Both the position numbers and the translations under genes were made by a program. The notes under the pieces were generated by a model. That model searched no databases, had not been told where the DNA came from, and saw nothing but the letters and a program-made list of their open reading frames with translations. A stretch of DNA of 64,000 nucleotides from an uncultured Bacteroidota bacterium (GTDB taxonomy: Bacteria > Bacteroidota > Bacteroidia > Bacteroidales > P3), in contig CACXXO010000008.1 in the NCBI GenBank assembly GCA_902771735.1, positions 39,795 through 103,794 on the forward strand, written 5' to 3'. Shown here piece after piece: positions 3,440 through 58,128 of this stretch. How positions within the stretch are numbered: the stretch's first letter is position 1; each line of letters opens with the position of its first letter.

Positions 3440-3532
3440 TACCATCTACCTACCATCTCCTTACCAACTCCCTACCAACTCCTACCACGGTAGGTGTTGA
3501 CAGGGCGTTGGCAGGATGATTATGTTAAGTAG
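3440..3532. repeat. TACC/GGTA palindromic array, copy 1
   Basis: The left arm has 11-bp units starting TACCATC or TACCAAC, the centre is TACCACGGTA (3483-3492), and the right arm has diverged units beginning GGTA, GACA and GGCA. Pairing between the arms is poorer than in the other four copies. It lies between the peptidase terminator and the promoter of the polysaccharide operon. Confidence 0.8.
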
Positions 3533-3636
3533 AAGTTTGGTCGGTAGTAGTCGGGCCCAAGGCCTGGCTTCACGCTGCCGAGAGAAGATTTTTCGTATAT
3601 TTTCAATATATTCTTTAAAATATAAAAATAATTTAG

Positions 3637-3644
3637 TATATTTG
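3637..3644 (+). promoter_or_regulatory. Probable promoter (-7 box) of the polysaccharide operon
   Basis: TATATTTG matches the TAnnTTTG -7 element and is the only good match between the terminator at 3.4 kb and upxY. No convincing TTTG box is seen at -33. The implied leader to the upxY ATG is about 205 bases. Confidence 0.5.
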
Positions 3645-3650
3645 CAGAAG

Positions 3651-3865
3651 ACTTCCCAAACGCAAAAAAAATGTTAAGCACTGGGAATGATAGGGTTGCG
3701 GCAACACCCTTGGACAGGGGCGTCCGTGAATCGGAACCTGAAAAACCGATGAACCTGCCAGAAACTCCGGCACATGGGCCGGAGGAGAGGGAGAATTGCC
3801 CCGAAAGAAGGGACATGTCGCCAACCAACCGGGCAACTGGAAAACCAACAAAAGAAGATGTCTGA
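3651..3865 (+). other. Long leader of the polysaccharide operon with a possible leader ORF
   Basis: The transcript leader contains several potential hairpins, including AGGGT/ACCCT around 3691-3709 and a CCGG-rich inverted repeat near 3767-3784. An ORF of 64 codons (3671-3865), rich in Pro, Glu and Arg, starts about 27 bases after the -7 box and ends eight bases inside upxY. UpxY proteins act on the leader of their own operon in Bacteroides, so this is the likely antitermination target; whether the small ORF is translated is unknown. Confidence 0.4.
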
Positions 3866-4373
3866 CGAGAATCTGCACTGGTATGCACTGAAGGTGTTCT
3901 ACAACAAGGTGCAACCACTGATAGCAGCCTGCAAGGAGTCGGGGGTGGAGTTTTTCGCTCCTGTGGAGGTTATCCGTTCGCTGCTGTTCCTCCGCTGCAC
4001 GGAGAACGAGTTCGGACATTTCCTGATAGCCCATGGGCAGGGCATCTATGTCTACCGCCAGGCTGGCAGCCAGCAGCCGGCGGTGATTCGCGACCATGAG
4101 ATGGAGGTGTTCCGTTTCGTGGTGACGGCCGGCCAGCAGGGGCTCACGCTGCTCGGCGAAGACCGGCCGGAATACCATCAAGGCGACCGTGTGGTGGTGA
4201 CCGACGGTCCCTTCAAGGGAGCCGAAGGACACATCAAGCGCATCAAAAAGGATCGCCGCCTGGTGGTGACCATTCCCGGTGTGGTGGCCGTGGCAACAGC
4301 CTTCATCCACCCGTCGATGTTGAAGAAAAAAGAGGACGCCGAACCGAAGACCGGCACACACAACAAAGCATGA
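3858..4373 (+). CDS. upxY: UpxY-type transcription antiterminator (NusG-like)
   Basis: The 171-residue protein opens with WYALKVFYNKV, typical of the NusG N-terminal domain, and has a KOW-like segment near residues 105-135 (GDRVVVTDGPFKGAEGHI). In Bacteroides, UpxY proteins ride on RNA polymerase and prevent early termination in the leader of the capsule operon they head. First position in a 31-kb operon and the long leader fit that role. I chose ATG 3858 because the NGN domain starts immediately after it; the longer reading frame upstream is low-complexity and overlaps the leader. Its stop overlaps the next start (ATGA). Confidence 0.85.
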   Translation: MSDENLHWYALKVFYNKVQPLIAACKESGVEFFAPVEVIRSLLFLRCTENEFGHFLIAHGQGIYVYRQAGSQQPAVIRDHEMEVFRFVVTAGQQGLTLLGEDRPEYHQGDRVVVTDGPFKGAEGHIKRIKKDRRLVVTIPGVVAVATAFIHPSMLKKKEDAEPKTGTHNKA

Positions 4374-5539
4374 AAAAAGGACTGTTTCAGCTTCAATACG
4401 AGTTTGAAGGCGGAAACGCCTACTCCGAGCAAGGCACGGAGCAGGGAGCCAAGTTGTCGGTGGACACCATCGAGAACGAGGCGGTGCGCGACATCCTGCA
4501 GACCACTGCCAAACTGAGCCACAAAGAGCTCATCAAGTGGCTCAACGCCAACAAGGATCGCTATCCCGAGATGCTCATCGTGCCACTGACCACCTCGACC
4601 CCCGAGGCCCTGCGCTACCGCATCGGCGATCGCAAACCGAAGCTGCTCTACCTCACCCGCCCGCTCCACACGCAGAAAGGGCTCAACCGCTTTCTCTACA
4701 CTGCCAACGAGCTCCTCGACAATGGAGCCTACCTCTGCTGCCACTCGATGACGACCGCCCTCAAGCGCGAGATGCTCAAAAAGAAATATCCGTGGGGAAT
4801 ACGCGAGATTGTGATCGCGGCCGACTACCTGTGGAACCGCATGACTCCCAAACTGAAGCTCACCCACAAACTCTATTACAACCTCACCGGAGGCAAGAGC
4901 CGCACGTTCACACGAGTGGAGATTCTCGGCCGGCTCTACCGCGCCGGGTTCGAGGTCATCGACGAGCAGTTCCGCCACGGCGAGTTCTTCGTGGTGGCCT
5001 GCAAGACCAAGGCACCCGTGAACGACACCGCGCCGCTCGGCTCGCCCATCATCCACCTGCGCCGCACAGGGAAGAACGGCAAGGAGATAGTGGTGCACAA
5101 GTTCCGCACGATGTACAACTATTCGGAATACATCCAGCCCTACATCTATCAATACCAGCACCTCCAGAGCGGAGGCAAGTTCAAAGACGACTATCGTGTG
5201 AGCACGGTGGGACGCTTTCTGCGGAAGACATGGATGGACGAGTTGCCGATGCTGTGGAACATGCTGCGTGGCGACATGAAACTGGTGGGCGTGCGGCCGC
5301 TGAGCAAGCACTACTTCAGCCTCTACACCCCCGAGATGCAGGAGCTCCGCACCCGCACCAAACCCGGCATGCTGCCGCCGTTCTACTATGAGCGCAAGAC
5401 CCCCGACACCCTCGACGAGATACAGGCCAGCGAGCGCCGCTACCTGGAAGCCTACCTGAAACACCCCTTCCGCACCGACTGGAAATATTTCTGGGGCATT
5501 GTGGGCAACATTATTTTCCACAGAAAACATTCAGCATGA
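4370..5539 (+). CDS. Initiating sugar-phosphate transferase (bacterial sugar transferase family)
   Basis: The C-terminal half of this 389-residue protein is a polyprenyl-phosphate sugar-1-phosphate transferase: it has HKFRTM, the catalytic Asp-Glu in WMDELPMLWNMLRGDMKLVG, VRPLS and the KPGM loop. Such enzymes load the first sugar phosphate onto undecaprenyl phosphate at the inner membrane. The N-terminal 220 residues resemble the extra domain I recall from Bacteroidetes versions of this family, ending in a segment like the C-terminus of a methyltransferase fold. There is no obvious transmembrane hairpin. Place in the operon, right after upxY and before the ABC permease, fits an initiating role; the sugar is not predictable. 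Confidence 0.8.
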   Translation: MKKGLFQLQYEFEGGNAYSEQGTEQGAKLSVDTIENEAVRDILQTTAKLSHKELIKWLNANKDRYPEMLIVPLTTSTPEALRYRIGDRKPKLLYLTRPLHTQKGLNRFLYTANELLDNGAYLCCHSMTTALKREMLKKKYPWGIREIVIAADYLWNRMTPKLKLTHKLYYNLTGGKSRTFTRVEILGRLYRAGFEVIDEQFRHGEFFVVACKTKAPVNDTAPLGSPIIHLRRTGKNGKEIVVHKFRTMYNYSEYIQPYIYQYQHLQSGGKFKDDYRVSTVGRFLRKTWMDELPMLWNMLRGDMKLVGVRPLSKHYFSLYTPEMQELRTRTKPGMLPPFYYERKTPDTLDEIQASERRYLEAYLKHPFRTDWKYFWGIVGNIIFHRKHSA

Positions 5540-6396
5540 AAGAAGAAAACCAAGAATGGACGACTGTCATACAGCCTAAAGAAAAGCTGCTGCAGGTCAA
5601 CCTACGCGAAATTTGGGACTACCGCGATTTGTGCAGCCTCTTCGTCAAGCGCAACATCACCACACAATTCAAGCAGACCATCCTGGGGCCGCTGTGGTAC
5701 ATCATCCAGCCCACCATGACGGTCATCATGTATATGGTGGTATTCGGAGGCATCGCCAAGATATCCACCGACGGCCTGCCGCAGCCGCTGTTCTACCTGA
5801 GCGGCATCTGCCTGTGGCAGTATTTCAACGACTGTCTGACAAAGACCTCATCGACATTCACCGCCAACGCCGGCATCTTCGGCAAGGTCTACTTCCCACG
5901 GCTCATCGTGCCCATCTCCAACGTCATCAGCAACCTGCTGCGCTTCGCCATCCAGTTGGGACTCTTCCTGGCGGTCTATGCCGTCTATCAGATTTGGATT
6001 ATTCCCGGACAGATACACACCAACTGGTATGTCCTGCTGCTTCCGTTGCTGGTGGTGATGCTGGCGGGATTGGCATTGGGGTTCGGCATCCTCTTCTCGA
6101 GCATGACGACCAAATACCGCGACATGACGCTACTGCTCGACTACTTCGTGCGGCTGTGGATGTATGCCACGCCGGTCATCTACCCCCTGAGCACCATCAC
6201 CAACGAGAAACTGCGCCTGGTGATGAGCCTCAACCCGCTGACCGGCATCGTCGAGGCTTTCAAATACGGCATGCTCGGCGAAGGCCAGTTCAGCTGGACC
6301 ATGCTGGCCTACAGTTTCGCATTCATGATAGCACTGCTAACCGTGGGCATAGTGATATTCAATCGCGTGCAGAAAAATTTCATGGACACCGTCTAA
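5536..6396 (+). CDS. wzm: Polysaccharide ABC transporter permease (Wzm-like)
   Basis: The 286-residue protein is an ABC-2 type permease with about six hydrophobic segments. The N-terminal LWDYRDL-like stretch followed by VKRNITTQFKQTILGPLWYI and the C-terminal SLNPLTGIVEAFKYGMLG are typical of O-antigen/capsule exporters. It would pair with the ATPase at 7703-8977 to flip a lipid-linked glycan across the inner membrane. It overlaps the sugar transferase stop by four bases. Unusually, two other units separate it from its ATPase. Confidence 0.9.
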   Translation: MKEENQEWTTVIQPKEKLLQVNLREIWDYRDLCSLFVKRNITTQFKQTILGPLWYIIQPTMTVIMYMVVFGGIAKISTDGLPQPLFYLSGICLWQYFNDCLTKTSSTFTANAGIFGKVYFPRLIVPISNVISNLLRFAIQLGLFLAVYAVYQIWIIPGQIHTNWYVLLLPLLVVMLAGLALGFGILFSSMTTKYRDMTLLLDYFVRLWMYATPVIYPLSTITNEKLRLVMSLNPLTGIVEAFKYGMLGEGQFSWTMLAYSFAFMIALLTVGIVIFNRVQKNFMDTV

Positions 6397-6468
6397 TAAC
6401 ACAGGGATATCCAAAGCCCTATCTTGCATCAACGATTCGCCACGATATTCTGGCAATCCAATCACCTA

Positions 6469-7503
6469 ATGTATAACGAAATTGACATCGCATTTGCATT
6501 GCTGCGCGGAGCCTTGGACGGCACGGCGGTGGAAATGGAGCAGATAGAGGCCAACCGATGGTGGAGCCTCTTCCGCCTGCTGCAGCAGAACCACGTGTCG
6601 TCGCTTGCCAGCGAAGCCTTTGCCCACATGGAGCAGAAGCCGCCGCGCGAGGTATACATCCCGTGGCTCAGCGAACGGCAGAAAGCCGACAGCTGGTATC
6701 ATCACCAGAACGAGGTCCAGCAGGAGATAGTAAGTCTCATGCAACAAGGCGGCATCGAGACCCTCGTGCTCAAGGGAACCCGTCTGGCACAGCTCTATCC
6801 GCAACCCGGGTTGCGCGAATTCGGCGACCTGGACCTCTATTTCTATGACCGTCACGACGAAGCCGACGCCTTGGCGAAGAAACAGTTGCACGTCGCCATA
6901 GGCAACGAGGCGCATCACCACTCGAAATACAACTACCGCGGTGTCACCGTGGAGAGCCACTACGACTTCATCAACAGCCACACCCCTCGCAGCAACCGCC
7001 GTTACGAAGAGCGGCTCAAGGAGTTGGCTCCCACGGCGAATTTCGAGGTGCTCTTCCTGCTGCGCCACATGGCCTGCCATTTTGCCGCAAGCCGCATCAC
7101 GTTGCGCGACGTGGTGGATTGGCACCTGCTGACGGCTGCCCACAAAGAGCATGTGGACTGGGAGTTGGTGGCCAACGCCGCTGAAGAAGCCGGCATGGCG
7201 ACTTTCGTTGCCGTGCTCAATAGCATCGCCTCACGGCGGCTGGGAAGCCAGGTGCTCATGGAATGTTCCTCCGACCGAGCCTTGGCTTACCGTGTGGAAC
7301 ACGACATCGTCTATGGAGACAAATCGTTGCGAGGCGACAACGAAAACGACGGCTTCAGCCGGCTGGCTTGGAAAATCCGCCGCTACCGCGCCAACCGATG
7401 GAAACAGCCGCTGGTCTACTCCCACGACTCCCGCCTCTCGCTCCTCCTCTCCTCCATTTCCTCCCACGCCCTGAAACCCCAAAGCATACTGCATAAAATG
7501 TAA
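6469..7503 (+). CDS. Nucleotidyltransferase-fold protein (PF14907-like)
   Basis: This 344-residue protein contains VLKGTRLAQLYPQPGLREFGDLDLYF, which resembles the LKG...R...D.D core of a nucleotidyltransferase family often found in polysaccharide loci. Two metal-binding Asp residues (GDLDLY) are present. A histidine-rich stretch follows and the rest is helical. The biochemical role of the family is not known to me; transfer of a nucleotide or sugar phosphate is only inferred. ATG 6469 is preferred over 6424 because the extra residues look like read-through of the spacer. It lies between wzm and the gmd/fcl scar. Confidence 0.65.
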   Translation: MYNEIDIAFALLRGALDGTAVEMEQIEANRWWSLFRLLQQNHVSSLASEAFAHMEQKPPREVYIPWLSERQKADSWYHHQNEVQQEIVSLMQQGGIETLVLKGTRLAQLYPQPGLREFGDLDLYFYDRHDEADALAKKQLHVAIGNEAHHHSKYNYRGVTVESHYDFINSHTPRSNRRYEERLKELAPTANFEVLFLLRHMACHFAASRITLRDVVDWHLLTAAHKEHVDWELVANAAEEAGMATFVAVLNSIASRRLGSQVLMECSSDRALAYRVEHDIVYGDKSLRGDNENDGFSRLAWKIRRYRANRWKQPLVYSHDSRLSLLLSSISSHALKPQSILHKM

Positions 7504-7509
7504 CCTTTT

Positions 7510-7728
7510 ATGAAAAAAGCACTCATCACAGGCATCACTGGGCAAGACGGCAGCTACAAAGGCGCTATCCTATGGGATGCCTCGCGTCCAAACGGTACAC
7601 CGAGGAAACTGCTCGACGTGAGCAAGGCCACCCAGTTGGGATGGACCTACAAAACCAAGCTCAAAAAAGGCATCCAATTAGCTTACGAAGATTTCATAAA
7701 GAATGGCAACAGCAATAGAGTTCAATAA
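7510..7728 (+). pseudogene. In-frame fusion scar of gmd and fcl (GDP-fucose synthesis genes)
   Basis: The 72-codon frame begins with MKKALITGITGQDGSY, the characteristic N-terminus of GDP-mannose 4,6-dehydratase, and continues directly into KGAILWDASRPNGTPRKL and LDVSKATQLGW, the C-terminal end of GDP-L-fucose synthase. These genes are normally adjacent, about 1.1 kb and 0.9-1.0 kb long, so a deletion of roughly 2 kb joined the start of one to the end of the other, near 7552-7560. Neither remnant can be active: the nucleotide-binding and catalytic regions are gone. The frame stays open and its end overlaps the wzt start by 26 bases, so translation coupling may have been kept. Confidence 0.85.
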
Positions 7729-18822: not shown

Positions 18823-19667
18823 AACAAGCCATCCTGATAACCGCTTACCGCGACATTCCAATGCTGGAAAAACTCGTCGACCGCTTCGACAACGATTTCG
18901 AGCTGTTCGTCCACGTAGACAAACGATGCCACGAAAGTCTTGCCAACATCGAAGGACGGAAGCAATTGCACCTATACCGCACCTATGCTGTGGAGTGGGG
19001 CGACTATAAACATCTGCTGGCGATTATTATGCTGATGCGAGAAGCATATAAGCACACCGACTTGCAGTATTTTCACCTCATTACGGGCAGCGACTACCCC
19101 ATTGTGCCGCTATCGCAGTTCAAGGCTTTTTGCGAAAAACACCGTGATGAGAACTATCTGGAGCACTTCCCATTGCCACATAGCGACTGGGGCAGCGAGG
19201 GCGGATTGAATCGCATACAATACTGGTGGTTGCGTCCAAACAGCACTCGCTCAAGCGGTGCATGGTTCACATGCAAGCTAATCAACCTGCAGCGGCGATT
19301 GGGGATAAAACGCAGGTTCTCCTACTTCGGAGGGAACCTCTATGGTGGTGGCACATACTGGAGTGTCTCCCGCAAGGCCGTAGGTGTTGCTCTCAACTAC
19401 CTTGAAAATAACAACAAGTATCTGCATCGGTTCCGTCACACCAGCATCGCCGAGGAGATATGCCTGCCAACCGTCTGGTGTAACAGCAGCTTGCCACTCA
19501 CCAACAACTACAAACGCTACATCGACTGGGGCCCAGACGGTGCCAATCCGCAGGTGCTCACCGAAGAAGACTACGACAACATTATCGCCTCCGGTGCACT
19601 CTTCGCACGTAAATTGGAGAGCGGCACTTCTGATAAACTGATAGAGTTCATTCAAAAATATGAATAA
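18819..19667 (+). CDS. Core-2/I-branching-type glycosyltransferase (GT14)
   Basis: The 282-residue protein reads ILITAYRDIPMLEKLV, FVHVDKR, YFHLITGSDYPI and GGTYWSVSRKA, the signature order of the Core-2/I-branching beta-1,6-N-acetylglucosaminyltransferase family. Bacterial members add xylose, GlcNAc or related residues in capsule and lipopolysaccharide synthesis. The longer frame from 18627 overlaps the upstream gene and is not used. It overlaps the next gene by eight bases. Confidence 0.8.
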   Translation: MKQAILITAYRDIPMLEKLVDRFDNDFELFVHVDKRCHESLANIEGRKQLHLYRTYAVEWGDYKHLLAIIMLMREAYKHTDLQYFHLITGSDYPIVPLSQFKAFCEKHRDENYLEHFPLPHSDWGSEGGLNRIQYWWLRPNSTRSSGAWFTCKLINLQRRLGIKRRFSYFGGNLYGGGTYWSVSRKAVGVALNYLENNNKYLHRFRHTSIAEEICLPTVWCNSSLPLTNNYKRYIDWGPDGANPQVLTEEDYDNIIASGALFARKLESGTSDKLIEFIQKYE

Positions 19668-31905: not shown

Positions 31906-31986
31906 TACCAACTACCTACCAACGCCCTACCAACTTCTACCGTGGTAGGAGTTGGTAGGGCGTTGGTAGGGCGATAATAGGTAGTT
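31906..31986. repeat. TACC/GGTA palindromic array, copy 2 (inside the polysaccharide operon)
   Basis: The centre TACCGTGGTA lies at 31938-31947. On each side the TACC or GGTA boxes recur at 10 and then 11 bp, and the arms pair over 25 bases with one G-T pair. The right end AATAGGTAGTT is shared with copy 3. It fills the only sizeable gap in this stretch of the operon and stops seven bases before the DUF354 start. Confidence 0.85.
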
Positions 31987-35729: not shown

Positions 35730-38216
35730 ATGGCAGACGAAAAGAAGAACACCGAGACCTCGTTCCTTGAGGAAAAGAAAACCCAGAAAATCCACATCAA
35801 GGATATCCTCTTCACCTTGCTGAGGAATATCCATTGGCTGGCTCTGTGCGGTCTGCTGGGTGCCGTCATCGCCGGATATTATGTCCGCCACCAGAACAGA
35901 GTCTATGAGAGCAACGCCCGCATACTGATCAAAGGGTCCTCCACCGGCAACAACGAGAACTCCCTCCGCGAGGCCTCCATCAAGAACATGTTCTCCACCA
36001 AGTCGCTCTACAACAGCTCCATCAACAACGAGATGATGATGCTCACCTCCAAGTCGGCCTTGACCGAGGTGGCTCGCAACCTGAAACTCAACATTGTCTA
36101 TACCGCCAAGACCCGCCTGGTCAACCGCACCAAAGACCTCTACGGCGAATCGCCCTTCACCATAGACTTCATTGACAATGACGAAGAAGACTATGTCTCC
36201 TTCACCGCCACCGTTGCCGATGAGAATTCCTTCACCCTCACTATGCCCGACTATGAGCCGCTGAAGGTTACCTTCGATGACACCGTGGCCACTCCCTTCG
36301 GCCGCATCGTGGCCCACAAAACGTGGTTCTTCAACACAAGCTTCCGCGAAACCCCCATCAATGTCGTCCACTACAGCCTGAACGCCGCTGCCGAGCGCTA
36401 CCGTGCAGCCCTGCAGGTGGCACGCAACGACGACATGAACACCATCATCAACATCGCCCTCCGCGATGCTTCGCCCATTCGTGCCCAGGAAGTCATCAAC
36501 GAAGTCATCAACGTTTACAACAACGACGCCGTCAAAGACAAGCAGCGCATCATTGCCGAGACCTACGACTACATCAATACCCGTCTGGCAATGCTCCACT
36601 CCGACCTCGGCACACAGGAAAACGCCCTCGCCAACTTCAAACGTGAGAACCAACTACTTGACATCTCCTCCTACGGACAGAGCTATCTCCAATCGAGCAT
36701 CCAGTCGTCGGAAGAGATTGAACGTTTGAAAAAACAGCTCTCACAGGCACGCTATCTGACGCAAATCAACCAGTCGGCCGACGCCGTCCACATCATCCCT
36801 CCCACCATCGGCCTTGACGATGCCAACATCATGAACCTCATCGAACGCCACAACGCCCTGGTGCTCGAACTGGAAAAATACCAAAGTCCCAACGCCCCTG
36901 TGGTGAAAGCCAAGATGGAGGAACTCCGCACCCTGCGCCACAACATGAACCGTCTCCTCGACGGCTACATCGGAATGATACAGGAGCGCATCGCCGAGAC
37001 TCAGATCGAAGCCTCCAACGCCTCGTCAAAGATGAGCCAGGTTCCCCAGCAGCAGCTCTATCTCGAAAACCTTGAGCGCCTGCAGAAAATCAAAGAGGAG
37101 CTCTATCTCCACCTGCTGAGCCGACGCGAAGAGCTGATGATCAGCCGTCCTTCCATCGAACCCAACGGCAAAATCCTCGACCCGGCTCGCATCAACCGCA
37201 CCCCGGTAGCACCCAACGAGACCAAAACCACCCTGATGGGTCTCTTCATAGGTTTGGCCATCCCCGTAGGCATCTTCTTCCTGCGCCGTCTGCTCGACAC
37301 CAAGGTGAAGTACCACAGCGACATCATGGGCGTCACCAACGTGCCATTCCTCTGCGAAATCCCCGCCCGCGAGAAGAACGACGACCGCGAGGTGGTGGTC
37401 ACCAACCACGACCACGATGCCATGTCGGAATCCTTCCGACTGCTGCGCACCAAGATTGACTTCCTCGGCACCCGCAACGAAAACAGCAGCTGCAAGGTGC
37501 TCATGGTCACTTCCCTGCTCCCCGGCATGGGTAAGACTTTCATATCCACCAACATTGCATCGAGCCTCGGCATCGCAGGCAAGAAAACCATCATCCTCGA
37601 CCTCGACCTGCGCAAAGGCTCGCTGACTCGCAGATTCTATTCGCGCAAACACGCCGGCCTCTCCAACCTGCTGGCAGGCAAGGTCGACGATTGGCACTCG
37701 ATTATCAAATCCGACCTCATCAACACGGGAATCGACAGCATCTTCACCGGCCCCATCCCGCCCAACCCCACCGAGTTGCTCAGCAACGGCCGCTTCGAGA
37801 AACTCATCGCCCAACTGCGCGAAAACTATGACTACATCATTCTCGACACTGCTCCCACGGGCTTGGTGGTCGACACCGACATCATCAAGAATCTGGCCGA
37901 CAACACCCTGTTTGTCATCCGATACAACAAATTCGACAAGCGTCTCCTCAACACCCTCGACGAGATGTACAAAGGCCAATCCTACCCCAACCTCTCCCTC
38001 GTGCTCAACGACGTCCACTACAAGAAGTTGATGCCCTACGAGAAGAAATATGGCTACGGCTATGGTTACGGGTATGGCTATGGTTACGGCTACGGATACG
38101 GTTATGGCTATGGCTACGGCTATGGCTACGGCGAAGCCGAACGCAAGGAAGATGCCGAAATCGAAGAAAAGGAAAATAATAGGAACCATAATAATAAAGA
38201 GGAAAAGGAAAAATGA
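35730..38216 (+). CDS. wzc: Wzc-type tyrosine autokinase and polysaccharide co-polymerase with Tyr-Gly repeat tail
   Basis: The 828-residue protein has a Wzz-type N-terminal domain with a membrane segment (WLALCGLLGAVIAGYYV), a long coiled periplasmic part, a second segment near residue 495, and a cytoplasmic BY-kinase: Walker A GMGKT (599-603), Walker A' ILDLDL with Asp624 and Asp626, and Walker B with Asp706. BY-kinases phosphorylate a C-terminal tyrosine cluster to control chain length and export. Here that cluster is 14 consecutive Tyr-Gly units (774-801), followed by an acidic/basic low-complexity tail. The stop overlaps the next gene by four bases. Confidence 0.9.
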   Translation: MADEKKNTETSFLEEKKTQKIHIKDILFTLLRNIHWLALCGLLGAVIAGYYVRHQNRVYESNARILIKGSSTGNNENSLREASIKNMFSTKSLYNSSINNEMMMLTSKSALTEVARNLKLNIVYTAKTRLVNRTKDLYGESPFTIDFIDNDEEDYVSFTATVADENSFTLTMPDYEPLKVTFDDTVATPFGRIVAHKTWFFNTSFRETPINVVHYSLNAAAERYRAALQVARNDDMNTIINIALRDASPIRAQEVINEVINVYNNDAVKDKQRIIAETYDYINTRLAMLHSDLGTQENALANFKRENQLLDISSYGQSYLQSSIQSSEEIERLKKQLSQARYLTQINQSADAVHIIPPTIGLDDANIMNLIERHNALVLELEKYQSPNAPVVKAKMEELRTLRHNMNRLLDGYIGMIQERIAETQIEASNASSKMSQVPQQQLYLENLERLQKIKEELYLHLLSRREELMISRPSIEPNGKILDPARINRTPVAPNETKTTLMGLFIGLAIPVGIFFLRRLLDTKVKYHSDIMGVTNVPFLCEIPAREKNDDREVVVTNHDHDAMSESFRLLRTKIDFLGTRNENSSCKVLMVTSLLPGMGKTFISTNIASSLGIAGKKTIILDLDLRKGSLTRRFYSRKHAGLSNLLAGKVDDWHSIIKSDLINTGIDSIFTGPIPPNPTELLSNGRFEKLIAQLRENYDYIILDTAPTGLVVDTDIIKNLADNTLFVIRYNKFDKRLLNTLDEMYKGQSYPNLSLVLNDVHYKKLMPYEKKYGYGYGYGYGYGYGYGYGYGYGYGYGYGEAERKEDAEIEEKENNRNHNNKEEKEK
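38049..38132 (+). repeat. Tyr-Gly codon repeat in wzc (14 units)
   Basis: TAT/TAC alternating with GGN forms 14 six-base units without interruption. Third-position changes break it into short identical runs such as GGCTATGGTTACGG, so it is imperfect but still prone to slippage. A gain or loss of a unit keeps the reading frame and changes the number of phosphorylatable tyrosines. Confidence 0.9.
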
Positions 38217-39775: not shown

Positions 39776-39893
39776 TACCACAAACCTCGCCCCACTACCC
39801 TGCCAAGCCCCTGCCAAGCCCCTGTCAACACCCTACCAACTCCTACCGTGGTAGGAGTTGGTAGGGTGTTGATAGGGCGTTAATAGGTAGTTA
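39776..39893. repeat. TACC/GGTA palindromic array, copy 3
   Basis: The centre TACCGTGGTA is at 39844-39853. The left arm runs through units TACCAACTCC, TGTCAACACCC and two identical TGCCAAGCCCC units; the right arm mirrors the inner two units as GGAGTTGGTA and GGGTGTTGATA. This is the longest copy and lies between two convergent terminators. Confidence 0.85.
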
Positions 39894-47405: not shown

Positions 47406-47520
47406 AACCTTAATAACGCCACAAGCCCAATTTTATTGTATCCTTAAAACGAAAAAAAGCCCTTCTCTCTACCGCCATCACACCAGGCGCTGTATCTTTC
47501 CCATCCTTAGCCGGACACCA

Positions 47521-49401
47521 TCAGAATTTGCAGCGGAGTTGGAAATGCCAAGTTTGGCGGATGGGGCCAGGCGTGGCAGCATTGTCGGAGCCTATGTGGT
47601 CTTCGCCAGGACGGAAGATGAGAGCATACTTGAAGCCGAGATTGAGCCAGCGAGTGAGGTCGCAGCGCAGCACTGCCGATGCGCGCAAACCACGTCCTTG
47701 CAAGGCGGGCAGACTATAGGCATACTGAATATAGCTTTCGCTGAGATAAATGCGGGCGTAATAGCCATCGATATCGTGCCATGCGGCTTGTACGGCCGTT
47801 TGCCAGCGGCCACGGCTGTAGCGCACCTCTTGCGAGGCTGCCCAGCCCCGTTGGTTGCCCGACTCCTCGGTATTGAACCACGAGAGGATGACCCTCGTGG
47901 TGAAACGCCACGGCCCATTGGTGAAGCGATACTGTCCCTGCAGTTGCTGTCGAAGGGTGTTCTCGATGACCTTGCCGCTGGTGCCGGGGACGTTACGTTG
48001 CTGATGGCGCAGGCTATAGCGCACCATGGCCTCGCCCCGATGGCCAACAGCGCGCCCCAGCTGCAACTGCCATTTTGAGCCCGTCGACGGAGCATAGCAG
48101 CCATACTTCAACTTGGGGAAACGGTGGACATCAGCGCTGAACAACGCGGTGATCCTTAATGGCAGATGGAAGCGGCCGTCGAGGCTCACGCCCTGCTCGT
48201 TGGCCGTGCGGCTGCCGATGCTGTAGGCCGCAGTATGGAGGTTGTGATAGCGAGAGTCGTAATGGCGCGCCGAAAGGCCGATACTGTTGTCACCGCGCAG
48301 CGATAGCCTCACACCGCCAATGGCAGCCGGATGACCCTCGGCGTCGGTGGCCGCTTCGCCGAAAAGCAACAGACGTCCCGCCTGCCACAACACGTCGACA
48401 CCTACGGTCCCGGCACGGTCGCCACGGAAATAGTCCTGGTTGTAGACATAGTCTCTCAGCTGCACGCTGTCATCGAGCATCGAGGCCGACGCCGTGAGAC
48501 CCAGCACGAGGTTGCCATGGCGGAACTCCATATGCCCGCCACCCATCCATTCGTCGCCAACCCTCGACCCGAAGGCCGACACACTGACATTGCGGCCAAG
48601 GCCGACAGTGGTGGCGACACCCTCCTGCCACCCTTCCTCATTGAATGGGCTGACAGCCTTAATGCCACCGGCGTAACGCACCGGCGAACTGCCTGTCAGT
48701 GAAAAAGGCTCGAAGCCCGTCCACAAAGATACTCCCTGCCCGAATTGAACATTGAAACGGCCCACCACGAGCCTCTCAATATGCACAGCCGTCCCCAGAT
48801 GCAAATCGTCAATCAACAAACTATATGACAGGTGATTATCTTTACCCCAGGCTTCCGTGGGGTCTTTGTCGCCTGCAAGTTGCAAGGATACCTGATTGCC
48901 ATAGTCGAAACGGTAGCAGAACAGCCCACGCAGGTTGTCACCTTCATACTTGCCGTTTTCGTAACCCTTGGCCTGCTCGACAGTGCCTCCAATCCCAGTC
49001 ACCAGCGTGTGGTGTCCCCACCGAAGCATCTCGGCAATGCCGGGAAATCCCTGCCTCTCGTAGGGTTCGGCTTTCACCAGGGGCTCGATGAGCGACACAG
49101 TGACACTGTCAAAACCCGGCACCATGCGCAATTCTCCCACACTGAGCAATTGCCCGTAAAGCATGATGTAGTTGCGCAAGGACTTGATTTGAAACGGCGA
49201 AAGGAACGGCAACGAGGCCACGGCGACCGTGTCGTTGATGTTTACCGGATTGTCGCTCAACTGTAGCAGGACATCTGTCAGCTCGGAAACATTGGCATCG
49301 GAACCATGCTCCTCGACCCACTGCTCGATAGCATCGTCGATCTGTGCCACCGCCGAAAAAGGCAGGGCAAACAGCAACAACAATATCAGCCTGCGAATCA
49401 T
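47521..49401 (-). CDS. Helix-hairpin-helix protein with predicted outer-membrane barrel
   Basis: The 626-residue protein has a signal peptide (LLLLLFALPFSAVAQ), two helix-hairpin-helix-like segments near residues 40-115 (ASLPFLSPFQIKSLRNYI and ELRMVPGFDSVTVSLIEPLV) resembling ComEA, and then about 500 residues of amphipathic beta-strands ending in QLRCKF, an aromatic terminus fit for Bam recognition. This architecture is shared by Bacteroidetes proteins usually called ComEA-family; a role in DNA binding at the surface is inferred only. It overlaps the rnc stop (ATGA). Confidence 0.7.
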   Translation of the reverse strand: MIRRLILLLLFALPFSAVAQIDDAIEQWVEEHGSDANVSELTDVLLQLSDNPVNINDTVAVASLPFLSPFQIKSLRNYIMLYGQLLSVGELRMVPGFDSVTVSLIEPLVKAEPYERQGFPGIAEMLRWGHHTLVTGIGGTVEQAKGYENGKYEGDNLRGLFCYRFDYGNQVSLQLAGDKDPTEAWGKDNHLSYSLLIDDLHLGTAVHIERLVVGRFNVQFGQGVSLWTGFEPFSLTGSSPVRYAGGIKAVSPFNEEGWQEGVATTVGLGRNVSVSAFGSRVGDEWMGGGHMEFRHGNLVLGLTASASMLDDSVQLRDYVYNQDYFRGDRAGTVGVDVLWQAGRLLLFGEAATDAEGHPAAIGGVRLSLRGDNSIGLSARHYDSRYHNLHTAAYSIGSRTANEQGVSLDGRFHLPLRITALFSADVHRFPKLKYGCYAPSTGSKWQLQLGRAVGHRGEAMVRYSLRHQQRNVPGTSGKVIENTLRQQLQGQYRFTNGPWRFTTRVILSWFNTEESGNQRGWAASQEVRYSRGRWQTAVQAAWHDIDGYYARIYLSESYIQYAYSLPALQGRGLRASAVLRCDLTRWLNLGFKYALIFRPGEDHIGSDNAATPGPIRQTWHFQLRCKF

Positions 49402-51643: not shown

Positions 51644-51675
51644 TTTCTTATGATTTTAATTGATAAAACTGGATG

Positions 51676-51920: not shown

Positions 51921-51998
51921 CCATCACCCTACCATCACCCTGCCATCACCCTACCAAGTCCTACCATGGTAGGAGATGATAGGGGGTTGGTAGGGTTT
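51921..51998. repeat. TACC/GGTA palindromic array, copy 4
   Basis: The centre TACCATGGTA is at 51962-51971. Left units read TACCAAGTCC, TGCCATCACCC and TACCATCACCC; right units read GGAGATGATA and GGGGGTTGGTA. Pairing of the arms is imperfect. This copy lies between the divergent acpP and purN promoters. Weakly similar C-rich sequence continues to about 51880. Confidence 0.8.
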
Positions 51999-52116
51999 TC
52001 ATTCGTATTTGACACGGACTTGACGCTAATTATCAGGCAGTTAAGCGCAAACACCTGCCGATTGGCATTGACAACCAATATCTTACGTCAATTTACAATC
52101 ATTTTAGGCAACTTTT

Positions 52117-52148
52117 TTTCATAGTTTCAACTTTTATTCTTATCTTTG
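52117..52148 (+). promoter_or_regulatory. Promoter of purN
   Basis: TATCTTTG at 52141-52148 matches the -7 element; TTTC at 52117-52120, 20 bases upstream, is a near match to -33 TTTG. The ATG is 29 bases downstream. Confidence 0.55.
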
Positions 52149-52177
52149 CATTTTATTTTGAATACATATATATAGAT

Positions 52178-52750: not shown

Positions 52751-53877
52751 TGCGCATCGCTATCAACACACGCCTGCTGCTGAAAGGAAGGATGGACGGC
52801 ATCGGATGGTTCACCGCCGAGACGGCACGTCGCATGGTGACGCAACACCCCGAACACCAGTTCTTCTTCCTCTTCGACCGGAAACCCGACCCAGAGTTTA
52901 TCTATGGGCCCAATGTGACGCCCGTGGTACTCTGCCCGCAGGCGAGACATCCGGTGCTGTGGTATCTCTACTTTGAATGGGCCACGCCGTGGGCGCTGAA
53001 GAAACACAAGATAGACCTCTACCTCACTCCCGATGGCATGATGCCGTTGCACCCCAAGGTGCCGACACTCACCGTCATCCACGACCTGAACTTCGAGCAT
53101 GCCACAGGCAACCTCATCGCCTCCCACCAGCGCTACATGAGCCACTACTTCCCTCTTTTTGCCCGAAACGCCACCCGTGTGGCCACCGTCTCGACCTACT
53201 CGAAAGAGGATATCTCACGCACCTACAACGTTGATTCCATGAAAATTGACGTGGTATACGATGGAGCCCACAACAACTACCGCCCGCATACCGAAGAGGA
53301 GAAAGCTTCTGTTCGGCAACAATTCACCAACGGGTGTCCTTATATAATATTTATAAGTACAATATTAAAAAGGAAGAATCTGGCCAATCTGTTGAAGGCC
53401 TTCGACAAAGTCAAAGAACAAGGAAACAGTGATTTGAAACTTGTGGTGGTAGGTAGCCGTGTGTGGTGGCAGGACGAACTGGCCGAAGCATACGACAATA
53501 TGAAGCATCAGCAAGATGTCATCATGCCAGGCCATGTCGACCCCGAAGACCTCGCCGCACTGCTCTCTGCCTCCGAGATGCTGGTCTATCCCTCATACTT
53601 TGAAGGCTTTGGAATACCAATACTGGAAGCCATGTATGCCGAGACAGCCGTTGTGGCTTCGAAAACCACCTCGATGCCCGAGGTAGGTGGCGATGCCGCA
53701 CTCTATATTGACCCCAACGACCCCGACGACATTGCGCAAGCCATACAACAGTTGGGGAACAGACAGTTGCGCAACGAGCTCATCGAAAAAGGCCGTCGGC
53801 AGCGCACCCTTTTCAGCTGGGACCGCACAGCGAGCTTGCTGTGGGACAGCCTGATGAAAACCCTGGAAGAAAAATGA
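52750..53877 (+). CDS. Glycosyltransferase family 4
   Basis: The 375-residue protein has INTRLLLKGRMDGIGWFTAE at the N-terminus, LTVIHDLNFEHATG, VATVSTYSKEDI, and the donor site SYFEGFGIPILEAMYAETAVV with the GT4 Glu, then SMPEVGGDAALYIDP. A retaining transferase acting on a lipid- or cell-wall-linked acceptor is expected. The longer frame beginning at 52270 lies inside purN and is discarded. Confidence 0.9.
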   Translation: MRIAINTRLLLKGRMDGIGWFTAETARRMVTQHPEHQFFFLFDRKPDPEFIYGPNVTPVVLCPQARHPVLWYLYFEWATPWALKKHKIDLYLTPDGMMPLHPKVPTLTVIHDLNFEHATGNLIASHQRYMSHYFPLFARNATRVATVSTYSKEDISRTYNVDSMKIDVVYDGAHNNYRPHTEEEKASVRQQFTNGCPYIIFISTILKRKNLANLLKAFDKVKEQGNSDLKLVVVGSRVWWQDELAEAYDNMKHQQDVIMPGHVDPEDLAALLSASEMLVYPSYFEGFGIPILEAMYAETAVVASKTTSMPEVGGDAALYIDPNDPDDIAQAIQQLGNRQLRNELIEKGRRQRTLFSWDRTASLLWDSLMKTLEEK

Positions 53878-55013
53878 AGAAACGCTGGATCAGCATTGCC
53901 TGTTTCATGGCGCTCATGGCAGCCATCCCCCTGCGGTCGCAAACTGCTGGTAACATGGTGTATAATCCCTCTTTCGAGGAATACCGGCGCTGCCCGATGA
54001 AGATCGACGCCTTGGGAGTGATGCGCGATGCCGACGCCTGGTGGCAACCCACACAGGGCAGCAGCGACTACTTCAACGCCTGTGGCAGCCGCGAATGCAA
54101 TGTGCCTCGAAACAAAATGGGCTTCCAGGAAGCCCACAGCGGCGAGGCCTACTGCGGAATCTACTGTTCGCAGGAACGCTACCGCGAATACCTTCAGACC
54201 GAGCTCATTACACCCATGGTCAAAGGCAAACGCTACCGTGTGAGTTTCTGGGTGAGTCTGGCAGACAAATCGCCTCAAGCCATAGCAACAATAGGTGCCG
54301 CCTTGACAACACGACGTCTCGAAGACACCACCCGTGGCATTCTGATGCAACGCGAAATATCGGAAATTGACGGGTACAACTCGCAATCAATCCTTCTACC
54401 AATTGAACCGCAAATAATTAACTCGCCAGAAAACATCCTCGACAACACCAAGGAGTGGGTCGAAGTGAGCGGTGAAATTACTGCACAGGGAGGCGAACGG
54501 TTCCTGACAATAGGCAATTTCCAACCCTTCAACAAATCGAACATCATCCTCACCATGGGCACTAACACCCCCTTGTCGGGTGCCTACTACTACATCGACG
54601 ACGTGTCAGTTGTATGTCTCGACACTGCCGAAGTGCCCGTTGTCGAGCCGCTGAAAGCTGCCAAGGAAGGCGAAATCGTAACGCTGCATAATCTCTTTTT
54701 CGCCACGGGCGAAAGCGAAGTGCTGCAACAATCCTACAACGAGCTGGTGAAACTCAAGAACTTGTTGTTGAAGAATCCCGAAATGAGGATTGAACTACGC
54801 GGACACACCGACAACCAAGGCTCTATCGACTACAACCAGAAACTGTCGGAAGCCCGTGCCAAGGCCGTGGTCGACTATCTTGTAGGCAAAGGCATAGACC
54901 GTCGGCGCCTGTCGTGGATAGGCTTTGGCAAGAGCCAACCCGTATCCGACAACAACACGGCAGAAGGCCGCCACAAGAACCGCCGCGTTGAATATCGCAT
55001 TCTTGCACAATAG
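53874..55013 (+). CDS. OmpA-family protein with N-terminal jelly-roll-like domain
   Basis: The 379-residue protein has a signal peptide (MALMAAIPLRSQ), then NMVYNPSFEEYRRCP, a start often seen in carbohydrate-binding-like jelly-roll domains, and a beta-rich region to about residue 245. The C-terminal third is an OmpA domain: LFFATGESEVLQQS, ELRGHTDNQGSIDYNQKLSEARA and GFGKSQPVSDN. It would anchor to peptidoglycan. ATG 53874 overlaps the preceding stop. Confidence 0.8.
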   Translation: MKKRWISIACFMALMAAIPLRSQTAGNMVYNPSFEEYRRCPMKIDALGVMRDADAWWQPTQGSSDYFNACGSRECNVPRNKMGFQEAHSGEAYCGIYCSQERYREYLQTELITPMVKGKRYRVSFWVSLADKSPQAIATIGAALTTRRLEDTTRGILMQREISEIDGYNSQSILLPIEPQIINSPENILDNTKEWVEVSGEITAQGGERFLTIGNFQPFNKSNIILTMGTNTPLSGAYYYIDDVSVVCLDTAEVPVVEPLKAAKEGEIVTLHNLFFATGESEVLQQSYNELVKLKNLLLKNPEMRIELRGHTDNQGSIDYNQKLSEARAKAVVDYLVGKGIDRRRLSWIGFGKSQPVSDNNTAEGRHKNRRVEYRILAQ

Positions 55014-55049
55014 CGCCACCCTCCATTCCCTCTTGAGCGAAAACAAAAT

Positions 55050-55080
55050 AAAGCGGGACCTCCATTGGAAGTCCCGCTTT
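55050..55080. terminator. Bidirectional terminator between convergent OmpA-family genes
   Basis: AAAGCGGGAC (55050-55059) pairs with GTCCCGCTTT (55071-55080) around an 11-base loop that itself can form TCC/GGA. It lies 36 bases after the + strand gene and 25 bases after the end of the minus-strand gene. Confidence 0.75.
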
Positions 55081-55105
55081 GAATAAACCAACTTATTTCT
55101 CAAAA

Positions 55106-56371
55106 CTATTCAATCACACGGTAGAAGCTGACGCGACGGTTGAGGGCGAACTGGATGTCACCGAAGGCAACACTCTTACCCTTGTACTCGGTCTGGATGC
55201 GATCCTCGGCAATACCATATTTCTTGACAAGGAGACGCTTGACCTCTTTGGCGCGCTTCTCGGAGAGCTTCATGTTGTAGCTGTCGCTGCCGGTGTAGTC
55301 GGCGAAACCAACGACGAGCACTTTAACATCGGGGTTGTCTTTGAGGACGCGGGCAACGGCTTTGACTTTGGCATCCTCATCCTCGGAAACCTGCCACTCA
55401 TCAACACCGTACAGGACGGAGAAGGGCATGGCGTAGAAGTTCAGCTGGTCGGCCTTGATCTGATCGATAACGGCCTGGAGGCTGTCGGCAGCAGCGCTGT
55501 TGCCAGCGCCACCCTTGCCACCCTGGGCGAGGGCCTGGGCAAGCTGATCCTCGAGCTCGGCGATACGATTCTCAAGTTTCTTCTCGTTGTTGCGGGAGTT
55601 GGCAACCTGACGCTCGAGGTTGTTCACCTGGCTGTTGAGGGCGCCGAAGTTCTCCTGAGTCAGCATGGCTTTCTGAGCGGCAACGGCCTTGTCGGTAGCG
55701 GTGACACCGAAGCAGTAGTAGTAACCAAGACGGAAGATACGGTTGGTGTGGTGAAGGGCGTTCGAGAAGAAGGTGCTGGGCGAGGGAGCATCACCATTGA
55801 TGTCGTAGCCATACTCGGCGAAGATGTTGTGGCTCTCACCGAAGCGATAGCTGGCGCCAAGACCACCGTCAAGAACGATACCCACGGTACCATAGTCCTG
55901 TTTGTTGATAGAGGTCTCTTCTTCCTTGTTGCCGCTGAGGGCGAGACCACCACCGGCATAGAGGTAGATGCTGAAGCGACGATCAGGGTTGTAGCCCAGA
56001 AGCGAGTTGTTGATGGACCACAGAATGTCGAGAGTGAGGGTCATGTGACGGTCATTGTAGTAGCCGTTCCAACCCTGCATGGGCTCCCAGAAGCTGGGGA
56101 AGCCAAAACGGATACGCCAGTCGAAGGCGTGGTTGAGCTTCTGCTGGGCGAAAATGTCCATACCAGCGTTGGTGGCGCGACGCCAACCAGCATCAAAGCT
56201 CTCGCCATTCATAACGGCTTGGTTGTTCAGGTCGAAGGAGAAACCAATCGACCAATTGCTCCAGAAACCATACTGAGGATACTCAGGCTTGCCAGTGTTC
56301 TGGGCAGAGGCGTTCATAGCAGTCACCATCAGGGACATGATAACGCCAACCTTGATTAATTTTTTCAGCAT
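55106..56371 (-). CDS. Major OmpA-family outer-membrane protein
   Basis: The 421-residue protein has a signal peptide (MVTAMNASAQ), an N-terminal barrel of about 230 residues (FSFDLNNQAVMNGESF, LTLDILWSINNSLLGY, FSIYLYAGGGLALSG), a coiled-coil linker (residues about 245-295) and a C-terminal OmpA domain with LVVGFADYTGSDSYNMKLSEKRA. The architecture is like the abundant Pgm6/7-type OmpA proteins of Porphyromonas. Codon use is biased and unlike the polysaccharide genes, as expected for high expression. Confidence 0.85.
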   Translation of the reverse strand: MLKKLIKVGVIMSLMVTAMNASAQNTGKPEYPQYGFWSNWSIGFSFDLNNQAVMNGESFDAGWRRATNAGMDIFAQQKLNHAFDWRIRFGFPSFWEPMQGWNGYYNDRHMTLTLDILWSINNSLLGYNPDRRFSIYLYAGGGLALSGNKEEETSINKQDYGTVGIVLDGGLGASYRFGESHNIFAEYGYDINGDAPSPSTFFSNALHHTNRIFRLGYYYCFGVTATDKAVAAQKAMLTQENFGALNSQVNNLERQVANSRNNEKKLENRIAELEDQLAQALAQGGKGGAGNSAAADSLQAVIDQIKADQLNFYAMPFSVLYGVDEWQVSEDEDAKVKAVARVLKDNPDVKVLVVGFADYTGSDSYNMKLSEKRAKEVKRLLVKKYGIAEDRIQTEYKGKSVAFGDIQFALNRRVSFYRVIE

Positions 56372-56440
56372 ATCAAATGTTTTTTTTAATTATTATATTA
56401 TTCTTTTTTAATAAGCGTACTTTTCCTATTGAAAGTTTTG

Positions 56441-56448
56441 CAAAAGTA
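56441..56448 (-). promoter_or_regulatory. Probable -7 box of the OmpA-family gene
   Basis: On the minus strand the sequence is TACTTTTG, a full match to TAnnTTTG, about 70 bases upstream of the ATG. A clear -33 TTTG is not found. The 56372-56595 gap is otherwise A/T-rich; no promoter for pgi could be picked out with confidence. Confidence 0.45.
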
Positions 56449-56595
56449 CATATTTTTTTTCAATCGTGGAAAATATTTTTTTCTTTCTTGCGTTAATTCG
56501 AAGAAAATATTGAAGTTACGAGCAAAAAAATTTTTTTCAGAAAGCATTTTAGTGTCTAAAAAATAGTATTTTAACCCTCAAATAAACGAAAAAAA

Positions 56596-57903
56596 ATGGA
56601 GAATTTGAGCATCAAATTGGCAGAAGCTACAGGAAAAGAGCACCAACAATCTATTAATCAGATTGCTGCAGAGGTCAAAGCTGCCCGCGAACACCTTTTG
56701 AAAGGCGATGCCGCCGGCAACGATTTCCTCGGATGGGTCAATCTTCCCGAAGAATATGACAAAGAAGAATATGCCCGGATGAAATCCGATGTGGCACGCC
56801 TGGGTGCAAAGAGCAAACTCTTCGTGGTCATCGGCATCGGCGGGTCGTACCTCGGCGCCCGCATGGTCATTGAGGCCCTGCAATCGGAGTTTGCCTCGCT
56901 GGTCCGCGGAGAGAAACCCTATGTCGTCTATGCCGGCCACACCCTTGGTGAGGACTACTACGGTCAGCTGCTAAAACTCTTGGACCATGAGGATTACAGC
57001 GTGGCCGTCATCTCCAAATCGGGCACCACGACAGAGCCTGCAGTGGCCTTCCGCATCGTCAAGGCACACCTCGAAAAGAAATACGGCAAGACCGAGGCTT
57101 CGCAGCGCATCGTGGCCATCACCGACGCCCGCAAAGGGGCCTTGCACGACATTGCCGTCAAGGAAGGATATCCCATGTATGTCATCCCCGACAACGTTGG
57201 CGGCCGCTTCTCGGTGCTCACACCTGTCGGACTGCTCCCCATCGCCATGGCCGGCTACGACACCGACCGCCTGATGCAGGGGGCACGAGACATGCGCCGC
57301 ATCTGCATCGAGAAGGACACCCTTGAAGAGAACCCCGCCATGATGTACGCCGCCATCCGCAACGTGCTCTACCGCAACGGTATAAAGGTCGAGATGCTGG
57401 TGAGCAGCCTGCCCAACCTGCGCTATCTGGCCGAGTGGTGGAAACAGCTCTACGGCGAAAGCGAGGGCAAGGAACACAAAGGCTTGCTGCCCCACAGCCT
57501 GAGCATCACCACCGACCTCCACTCGATGGGCCAGTATGTCCAGGACGGCGAACGCCTGATGATGGAGACCATGGTGCGCGTCAAAGAGCCCGCCACCCAT
57601 GTTCCCGTGCCCACCGACGAGCAGAATCTCGACGGCATCAACTACCTTGTCAACAAGAGCCTTACCGAAATCAACAACTGCGCCACCGAGGGCACCATCG
57701 AAGCCCACCTCTCCGGCGGTGTGCCCGTGATGGAAATCGGCGTGGAGCGTATCGACGAATACACCCTCGGCCAACTCATCTATTTCTTCGAGTTTGCTTG
57801 CGGCGTCAGCGGCTACACCCTGGGCGTCAACCCCTTCAACCAGCCCGGCGTCGAAGCCTACAAGAAGAATATGTTCCGCCTCTTAGGCAAACCCGGCTTT
57901 TGA
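56596..57903 (+). CDS. pgi: Glucose-6-phosphate isomerase
   Basis: The 435-residue protein has VIGIGGSYLGARMVIEAL, ISKSGTTTEPA, VGGRFSVLTPVGLLPIA, and the C-terminal QPGVEAYKKNMF with the conserved Lys, all typical of the shorter bacterial Pgi. It interconverts glucose-6- and fructose-6-phosphate, feeding hexosamine and nucleotide-sugar synthesis. Confidence 0.95.
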   Translation: MENLSIKLAEATGKEHQQSINQIAAEVKAAREHLLKGDAAGNDFLGWVNLPEEYDKEEYARMKSDVARLGAKSKLFVVIGIGGSYLGARMVIEALQSEFASLVRGEKPYVVYAGHTLGEDYYGQLLKLLDHEDYSVAVISKSGTTTEPAVAFRIVKAHLEKKYGKTEASQRIVAITDARKGALHDIAVKEGYPMYVIPDNVGGRFSVLTPVGLLPIAMAGYDTDRLMQGARDMRRICIEKDTLEENPAMMYAAIRNVLYRNGIKVEMLVSSLPNLRYLAEWWKQLYGESEGKEHKGLLPHSLSITTDLHSMGQYVQDGERLMMETMVRVKEPATHVPVPTDEQNLDGINYLVNKSLTEINNCATEGTIEAHLSGGVPVMEIGVERIDEYTLGQLIYFFEFACGVSGYTLGVNPFNQPGVEAYKKNMFRLLGKPGF

Positions 57904-57930
57904 TATCGGAGAAAAAAAACGTCCGAAGAG

Positions 57931-57964
57931 CAGGGAGAATCAACAAAGATTCTCCCTGTTTTTA
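57931..57964 (+). terminator. Intrinsic terminator of pgi
   Basis: CAGGGAGAATC (57931-57941) pairs with GATTCTCCCTG (57948-57958) around a 6-base loop and is followed by a T run. It is 28 bases after the pgi stop. Confidence 0.85.
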
Positions 57965-58033
57965 TAGGAAAAATCCCGGCAGCAATCTCTCCCAACCTCA
58001 AAGTGGGCGGAAGCCTCCATCTTCGCCACAACC

Positions 58034-58128
58034 CCCTACCAAACACCAACGAAGTCCCTATCAACTCCTACCGCGGTAGGAGTTGATAGGGACTTGATAA
58101 GGCATCGGCAAGTGCTTGATGCCTACTT
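58034..58128. repeat. TACC/GGTA palindromic array, copy 5
   Basis: The centre TACCGCGGTA is at 58069-58078. Inner arms TATCAACTCC/GGAGTTGATA and AAGTCCC/GGGACTT pair perfectly although both differ from the other copies. The right arm ends in a small separate palindrome (GGCATC...GATGCC, 58101-58123). It lies between the convergent pgi and ssb genes. Confidence 0.85.

Follow-up and report, generated by a model that had tools for sequence, protein, structure and literature searches.

What kind of element is a long, ordered palindrome that recurs five times in the intergenic DNA of a single chromosome segment, and what might read it? We addressed this question in a stretch of 64,000 nt from an uncultured gut Bacteroidota bacterium (contig CACXXO010000008.1, positions 39,795 to 103,794; the whole stretch is hereafter called the window), whose genome (hereafter the own genome) comprises 2.29 Mb in 37 contigs and is 96% complete. 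Each element (hereafter array) consists of short boxes at 11-bp steps, mirrored about a central TACC-NN-GGTA dyad. The arrays belong to a family that is evenly spaced along the genome, and their 11-bp step recurs, in other letters, in arrays of other genus members. We give an even chance to the explanation that they are chromosome-architecture sites, at which a protein would wrap ~130–150 bp of helically phased DNA.

A dispersed family of phased palindromic arrays

The core of the arrays, CCTACCNNGGTAGG, has 121 matches in the genome with at most one mismatch and 85 exact matches, against 7 and 0, respectively, for a reversed control. The five arrays of the window are its share of this genome-wide family. 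A profile search of 820,683 bases, window included, returned 63 hits, from which 61 arrays were kept; a hit inside a gene (C1:136405) and a weak one (C1:38800) were left out before every count. By extrapolation, the genome would contain ~170 arrays. The core matches and the profiled arrays support, genome-wide, the dispersed, helically phased and dyad-symmetric family that an earlier reading of the window, made from its letters only (hereafter the sequence-only reading), had proposed from five copies. Copies are numerous, the phasing is kept elsewhere, and no match to a known repeat or transposon end turned up in the collections and literature searched.

When the 61 arrays are aligned at the dyad, the consensus reads outward as YGGTAGGAG followed by repeats of TTGGTAGGGAG, and the information per unit declines from 14.2 to 1.6 bits across six units, with a floor of ~1. 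In 57 arrays, a purine-pyrimidine pair occupies the centre (GT 27, AC 15, AT 8, GC 7), and the 11-bp self-match reaches the local background by ~65 bp from the dyad. The 11-bp steps, the 10-bp step beside the centre and the mirrored right side described by the sequence-only reading were recovered, but the boxes are degenerate (TACC/TATC/TGCC/TGTC). The limits it gave to the copies were partly too narrow, since some copies extend further and the mean signal spans 5–6 units, ~64–75 bp per side of the dyad. Its view that the arrays are neither CRISPR nor simple repetitive extragenic palindromic (REP) elements held: the 11-mers are contiguous, without unique spacers, and long 11-bp arrays are not ordinary REPs. 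Its further proposal, that a protein binds cooperatively, is a hypothesis.

Gap types and intergenic calls come from a simple, crude in-house gene caller. Typed intergenic gaps hold 58 of the 61 arrays; of the remaining three, two have no right-hand neighbour in the stretch and the third falls within a predicted gene. Gene pairs with an array between them number 29/484 (co-directional), 9/85 (convergent) and 20/83 (divergent), and when only gaps ≥60 bp (after subtraction of the array length) are counted, the figures are 28/183, 9/36 and 20/72, respectively. No preference for convergent gaps was found among the typed gaps, and divergent gaps are in slight excess over convergent ones (20 vs. 9, P = 0.04).

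Arrays that lie next to each other show some likeness (P = 0.0015 overall, P = 0.064 when tested within contigs). At C1:49–152 kb and C7:16–133 kb, adjacent arrays resemble local subfamilies (GGTCGG/TACGG types and GGGAAAGAG types). At C1:49–152 kb and C7:16–75 kb, long arms often finish in a common motif, e.g., GGTACTAAGTATCAGGCAGTTA, and since this motif stands on one side only, these arrays are oriented.

Even spacing, shared loci and other units in relatives

Even spacing, conserved loci and other 11-mers in relatives go beyond what the sequence-only reading saw. In the own genome, the 56 within-contig spacings have a mean of 12.2 kb, a minimum of 3.2 kb and a coefficient of variation (CV) of 0.45, whereas random draws of an equal number of intergenic gaps, uniform or length-weighted, gave CVs of 0.88–0.92; under each of four nulls, none of 3000 simulations reached a CV as low as 0.45. 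The result was repeated in seven genus members whose units differ, picked for a clear lag-11 signal (described below) and represented by hits of score ≥32 only: their 36 spacings have a CV of 0.42, compared with 0.73–0.78 at random (0/4000 simulations under either of two nulls).

When species genomes were scanned with a stricter 22-base core, at least 86 stretches matched, and all of the matches listed (80) come from Bacteroidales or Bacteroidetes. The array-bearing relatives are metagenome-assembled genomes of Bacteroidales or Bacteroidetes, some from rumen or reticulum. The external set comprises 103 arrays in 99 loci, and 21 arrays, with both flanks alignable to own contigs, were testable. 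An own array lies at the matching locus for 20 of the 21 (16 distinct own loci; two of the 20 cases depend on loose gaps of 3–4 kb), against a background in which ~28% of own gaps ≥100 bp hold an array (58/208). The one empty site concerns an array near 7584 of locus L092, which is missing at own C8:87212–87315 (window 47418–47521); no clean insertion or target duplication was seen in this single case. The likeness of orthologous arrays is 0.92, 0.81, 0.54 and 0.40 in zones 0–9, 10–31, 32–64 and 65–110, and that of unrelated arrays 0.91, 0.76, 0.45 and 0.27. Since orthologous cores are barely more alike than unrelated ones, the locus and the consensus are kept while the details turn over. Even spacing and shared loci separate the arrays from interspersed repeats usually considered selfish.

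At own C3:5760–7156, 1.4 kb is 96% identical to L031 (genome G014), while the PorX-like proteins are 82% identical, which suggests the recent transfer of a segment carrying its array; two units (22 bp) distinguish the own array from that of L031. Upstream of the PorX-like gene, 9 of 30 genomes have a lag-11 array in the gap, and since more than a quarter of own gaps ≥100 bp hold an array anyway, this is no evidence of genus-deep position conservation. In L177 (G061), the same gap carries very regular direct 11-bp arrays, CTCTCTACCCC then CTCTCTGGGTC. A synteny test found an array in the other species for 2 of 5 array-bearing own gaps and 3 of 111 array-free gaps, too few cases to use.

The exact core is present in 13 of 118 genomes: ten of the 71 in the genus (85, 80, 72, 15, 13, 5, 2, 2, 1 and 1 copies) and three with single matches in other families, around which no arrays were seen. 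A sequence-blind test, self-match at lag 11, was applied to 50–100 kb stretches of 11 other genus members, where it revealed intergenic arrays of different 11-mers, among them TTCTTCAGTAG (G022), TTCTTCGATTG (G028), GTCCGCTTGTT (G069), TTCTTCAGTCG (G015) and ACCGTACATGC (G048). Pooled over the 11 genomes, lags 11 and 22 gave 65 and 56 intergenic clusters, and the control lags 7, 8, 9, 10 and 14 gave 46, 44, 42, 27 and 37, much of this owing to tandem repeats of other kinds in G022, G049 and G002. Four genomes (G015, G028, G048 and G119) are the cleanest and were selected after the lag results were seen; there, lag 11 gave 31 clusters, lags 9 and 12 gave 10 and 13, and lags 8, 10, 13, 14, 16 and 17 gave 0–2 each. 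The own genome has 77 clusters at lag 11, compared with 6–39 at lags 7, 8, 10, 13, 14, 16 and 17. Stretches of 40 kb from each of ten further genus members, most of them more distant, yielded 18 pooled clusters at lag 11, 19 at lag 7 and 1–15 at other lags, with clear arrays by eye in five of the ten members (G118, G056, G063, G040 and G125). Outside the genus, 315 kb sampled from 19 families contained 11 clusters at lag 11 and 2–12 at other lags, mostly AT-rich. A non-AT-rich lag-11 hit (33 of 55) at 19340–19487 of L243 (G099, another Bacteroidales family) may mean that the architecture extends beyond the genus.

Mirror symmetry often accompanies the other units. Inverted repeats exceed six shuffles in most hits of G015 (9/9), G028 (8/8), G022 (7/8), G119 (5/6), G069 (4/4) and G002 (4/5), and the shares are lower in G048 (4/8), G047 (2/6), G049 (2/6), G009 (1/3) and G014 (0/2). 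The low shares of G014, G009 and G048 indicate that in some species the arrays are direct, not mirrored. At least two unit families stand side by side in each of G015, G028 and G069. By eye, an inner unit family is nested in an outer one in arrays of G022, G015, G028 and G063, a layering that looks like renewal from the dyad; conservation in the own genome also drops outward.

If the reader senses bending, GC-rich positions are expected at one phase to the dyad whatever the letters. In the own arrays, the GC phase is 5.69 of 11 (R 0.92, n = 61). For the relatives, fixed cut-offs were applied over all 44 calls, in place of earlier hand-picked families; calls from the ten further genus members cover only regions chosen from their lag-11 results. 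With an inverted-repeat score of ≥23 of 30 and a loop of ≤10, eight unit families have a mean phase of 5.52 (R 0.85, Rayleigh P = 0.0008). Looser dyads gave P = 0.02 (score ≥21, 13 families), P = 0.03 (loop ≤6, 16 families) and P = 0.08 (all 22 families).

Candidate readers and rival explanations

If the arrays are wrapping sites, a protein assembly would nucleate at the dyad and then wrap or line ~60–75 bp on each side. It would read the boxes, which recur once per helical turn and would thus face it, and one site per ~10–12 kb would pin or partition supercoiled domains. The other 11-mers in relatives suggest that the reader senses helical phase or is an architectural protein that evolves fast, and speak against a single fixed repressor with sequence specificity. 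Besides letters, helical phase and bendability probably matter to the reader, so that lineages could renew their 11-mer units with phase, symmetry and spacing kept, and this renewal apparently proceeds from the dyad outward. A bolder version, which we put forward as speculation and think doubtful, makes the array a self-renewing architecture element: dyad-symmetric wrapping sites about every 10 kb would be selected for phase, symmetry and spacing, not letters, with new 11-mers arising at the dyad and older layers decaying outward. Each species would then spell one shared architecture in letters of its own, and the arrays would be a prokaryotic equivalent of the DNA that positions nucleosomes or marks domain boundaries.

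What determines the ~10-kb size of bacterial supercoiled domains, and whether DNA encodes it, is an old open question. The genus appears to mark its chromosome at this scale, and the step, and often the symmetry, persist through the change of letters. Should gyrase or a nucleoid protein bind there, one could predict the boundaries of domains from sequence and test them.

Several observations weigh against wrapping sites. A reader of phase alone would not need so strict a consensus within a species, direct arrays occur in some species, and only half of the ten more distant genus members show clear arrays, with lag 11 not above lag 7. The agreement in GC phase fades as less certain dyads enter (from P = 0.0008 to 0.08), and these P values are optimistic since the families may share remote ancestry. 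The copy number, phasing, dyad, intergenic placement, loci in common with near species, even spacing and other units in relatives are observed; we infer the bound protein, the wrapping, the topological role and the growth from the centre.

Two specific readers fall within this explanation, and their probabilities are shares of its probability, not additions to it. The arrays may be built-in strong DNA gyrase sites, with gyrase at the dyad and the phased arms wrapped on the C-terminal pinwheels of GyrA, although we think this rather improbable. The E. coli gyrase motif is 130 bp long and symmetric about the cleavage site, with 47-bp flanks, a 10.75-bp GC period and indirect readout (PMC6379681). 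Gyrase sites (this motif, the Mu strong gyrase site and BIME-2) are the nearest described object to the arrays, which they resemble in their ~130-bp size, dyad, near-one-turn flank phasing and sequence looseness (PMC6379681, PMC12393610), and BIME-2 sites are likewise dispersed intergenic palindromes. The E. coli motif is described as degenerate and transcription-linked, whereas the arrays have a strict lineage consensus, mirrored 11-mers and even spacing. The size, dyad and step of the arrays, with 11-bp self-match to ~65 bp on each side, agree with the gyrase motif, the phase is kept while the letters change, and a one-frame GyrA with six pinwheel repeats was found in 8 of 8 genomes tested. 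However, such a GyrA also occurs in most bacteria (12 of 14 controls), GC power in the inner arms is broad (10–11 bp) with none beyond 64 bp, and convergent gaps are not enriched. We know of no such arrays in bacteria with such a GyrA in general, which also counts against gyrase. The other reader would be a dedicated, fast-evolving, sequence-specific nucleoid or segregation protein, which would nucleate at the palindrome and spread on the phased boxes, the protein and its sites changing together in each lineage. We regard this as possible, though well short of probable. The near-invariant core with its purine-pyrimidine centre, the likeness of cores (0.91) even at unrelated loci of different species and the 11-bp boxes on one face of the DNA argue for it. 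The coexisting unit families of G015, G028 and G069 would require several readers or a loose one, and no candidate reader gene is in hand, none having been searched for. A dedicated protein accounts for the consensus better than gyrase, and for the coexisting unit families less well.

Outside the wrapping-site explanation, the arrays could be repeats of selfish or mutational origin, with no function for the host, that multiply through copying or conversion and are tolerated in intergenic DNA; we consider this unlikely, if a serious contender. REP- and MITE-like families are common, which speaks for it. The patchy copy number in the genus, the two-unit difference between the L031 array and its own counterpart, and the likeness of neighbours are also consistent with copying. 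Against it stand the even spacing in the own and seven other genomes, the loci shared in 20 of 21 cases and the sole empty site without clean insertion; shared loci and this site, together with the lack of matches of one array in plasmid and phage collections and of the exact core in viral contigs, also led us to reject miniature inverted-repeat transposable element (MITE) or transposon ends. REP and bacterial interspersed mosaic elements (BIME) with TnpA-REP are dispersed intergenic palindromes too, with >100 copies and a lineage-specific sequence. E. coli REPs are mostly 10–30 nt, described without clustering or periodicity (PMC12306157), whereas the arrays are long, 11-bp phased and evenly spaced. 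The Y1 (TnpA-REP) transposase PF01797, present in 9 of 12 genomes tested, is absent from three that bear arrays (G000, G028 and G015; the own genome is 96% complete), which speaks against selfish repeats and led us to reject REP/RAYT membership. The BrickBuilt MITE of Porphyromonas gingivalis is, like the arrays, a Bacteroidales interspersed element with internal tandem repeats, but it has 23-nt direct repeats, terminal inverted repeats of the insertion sequence (IS) type, target duplications and 19 copies (PMC4596501).

Much less probable are RNA-level hairpins, i.e., terminators, mRNA stabilisers or RNase III sites. All five window copies fold much better than shuffles (z −4.3 to −9.5), some copies of the family form perfect 20–30 bp stems, and near-perfect stems occur in other species; good folding is, however, expected of any inverted repeat. 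Arm-to-arm matches within a copy barely exceed those between copies (1581 vs. 1566, standard deviation 15, 35 positions; P = 0.07 for positions 9–30 in 28 exact-core arrays). Matches exceed chance at two positions of the arms, 5 and 10 (z 3.7 and 4.3), but swapped-arm tests found no overall compensatory change between arms, and an impression of linker covariation from the first 15 loci failed them. The near-independence of the arms of one copy fits protein sites better than paired RNA, and it counts against strong selection on paired RNA or a cruciform in the own genome; dyad, step, locus and spacing are the features that are kept. Arrays are also common in divergent gaps. Rfam at gathering scores gave only tRNA in the window, so that a known RNA family was rejected. 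Least credible of all, to the point of near-dismissal, are DNA-uptake or recombination signals with lineage dialects. Uptake sequences do combine an even spread with dialects, but their words are short and also lie in coding DNA, whereas the arrays are long, phased and intergenic.

The sequence-only reading knew of no named family with this plan, and we found none either: besides the Rfam result, one array had no match in plasmid and phage collections, the exact 22-base core had none in viral contigs, and among the papers listed in searches of open-licence literature, none describes such a family. Plasmid centromeres share with the arrays 11-bp repeats on one DNA face, bound by ParR, but these are direct repeats that occur at a single place on each replicon, next to its own par genes. 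The arrays have mirrored arms and, by the above extrapolation, far more chromosomal copies, and with 121 chromosomal core matches in place of a single locus beside par genes, a plasmid centromere (parC) was rejected. SegB sites of Sulfolobales are, like the arrays, palindromes scattered on the chromosome and tied to its organisation, but they are described as a 13-bp motif with 46 sites, 83.7% of them in genes, and without phased arms (PMC12284271).

Arrays and other features of the window

All five copies listed by the sequence-only reading lie where it placed them, and each has an exact CTACC-NN-GGTAG core (at 3482, 31937, 39843, 51961 and 58068). If one mismatch is allowed, the window contains 7 core matches where 0.82 are expected, and 0 of 100 shuffles gave as many; the two others (28891 and 29379) are inexact and are not arrays. 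The intergenic placement in gaps of all three types was likewise borne out, and no array is assigned a strand. Array 1 (3440–3532; dyad 3487/3488, centre AC) lies in a co-directional gap, with five TACC boxes in its left arm and a degenerate right arm. Array 2 (31906–31986; dyad 31942/31943, centre GT) also lies in a co-directional gap, its dyad ~50 bp from either gene. Array 3 (39776–39893; dyad 39848/39849, centre GT) occupies a convergent gap, and the matching locus in L028 and L048 also has an array. The divergent gap holds array 4 (51921–51998; dyad 51966/51967, centre AT), which has a counterpart at the matching locus in L032. Array 5 (58034–58128; dyad 58073/58074, centre GC), in a convergent gap, has arms that are perfectly complementary over the inner 20 bp, and its outer units are poor, so that it and array 1 follow the proposed mirror plan only in part.

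Other features of the window were also noted. A tandem 6- to 18-bp repeat at 38049–38138 lies within a predicted gene and encodes Tyr-Gly runs. A long co-directional gene run at 15.5–23.5 kb resembles a polysaccharide cluster, and several of its open reading frames have in common a stretch resembling the DD(C/G)S motif of family-2 glycosyltransferases. An element of the TGCAAAAGTACA type with a T-run, perhaps promoter-proximal, occurs in four copies, at 1590, 56439, 58610 and 62279.

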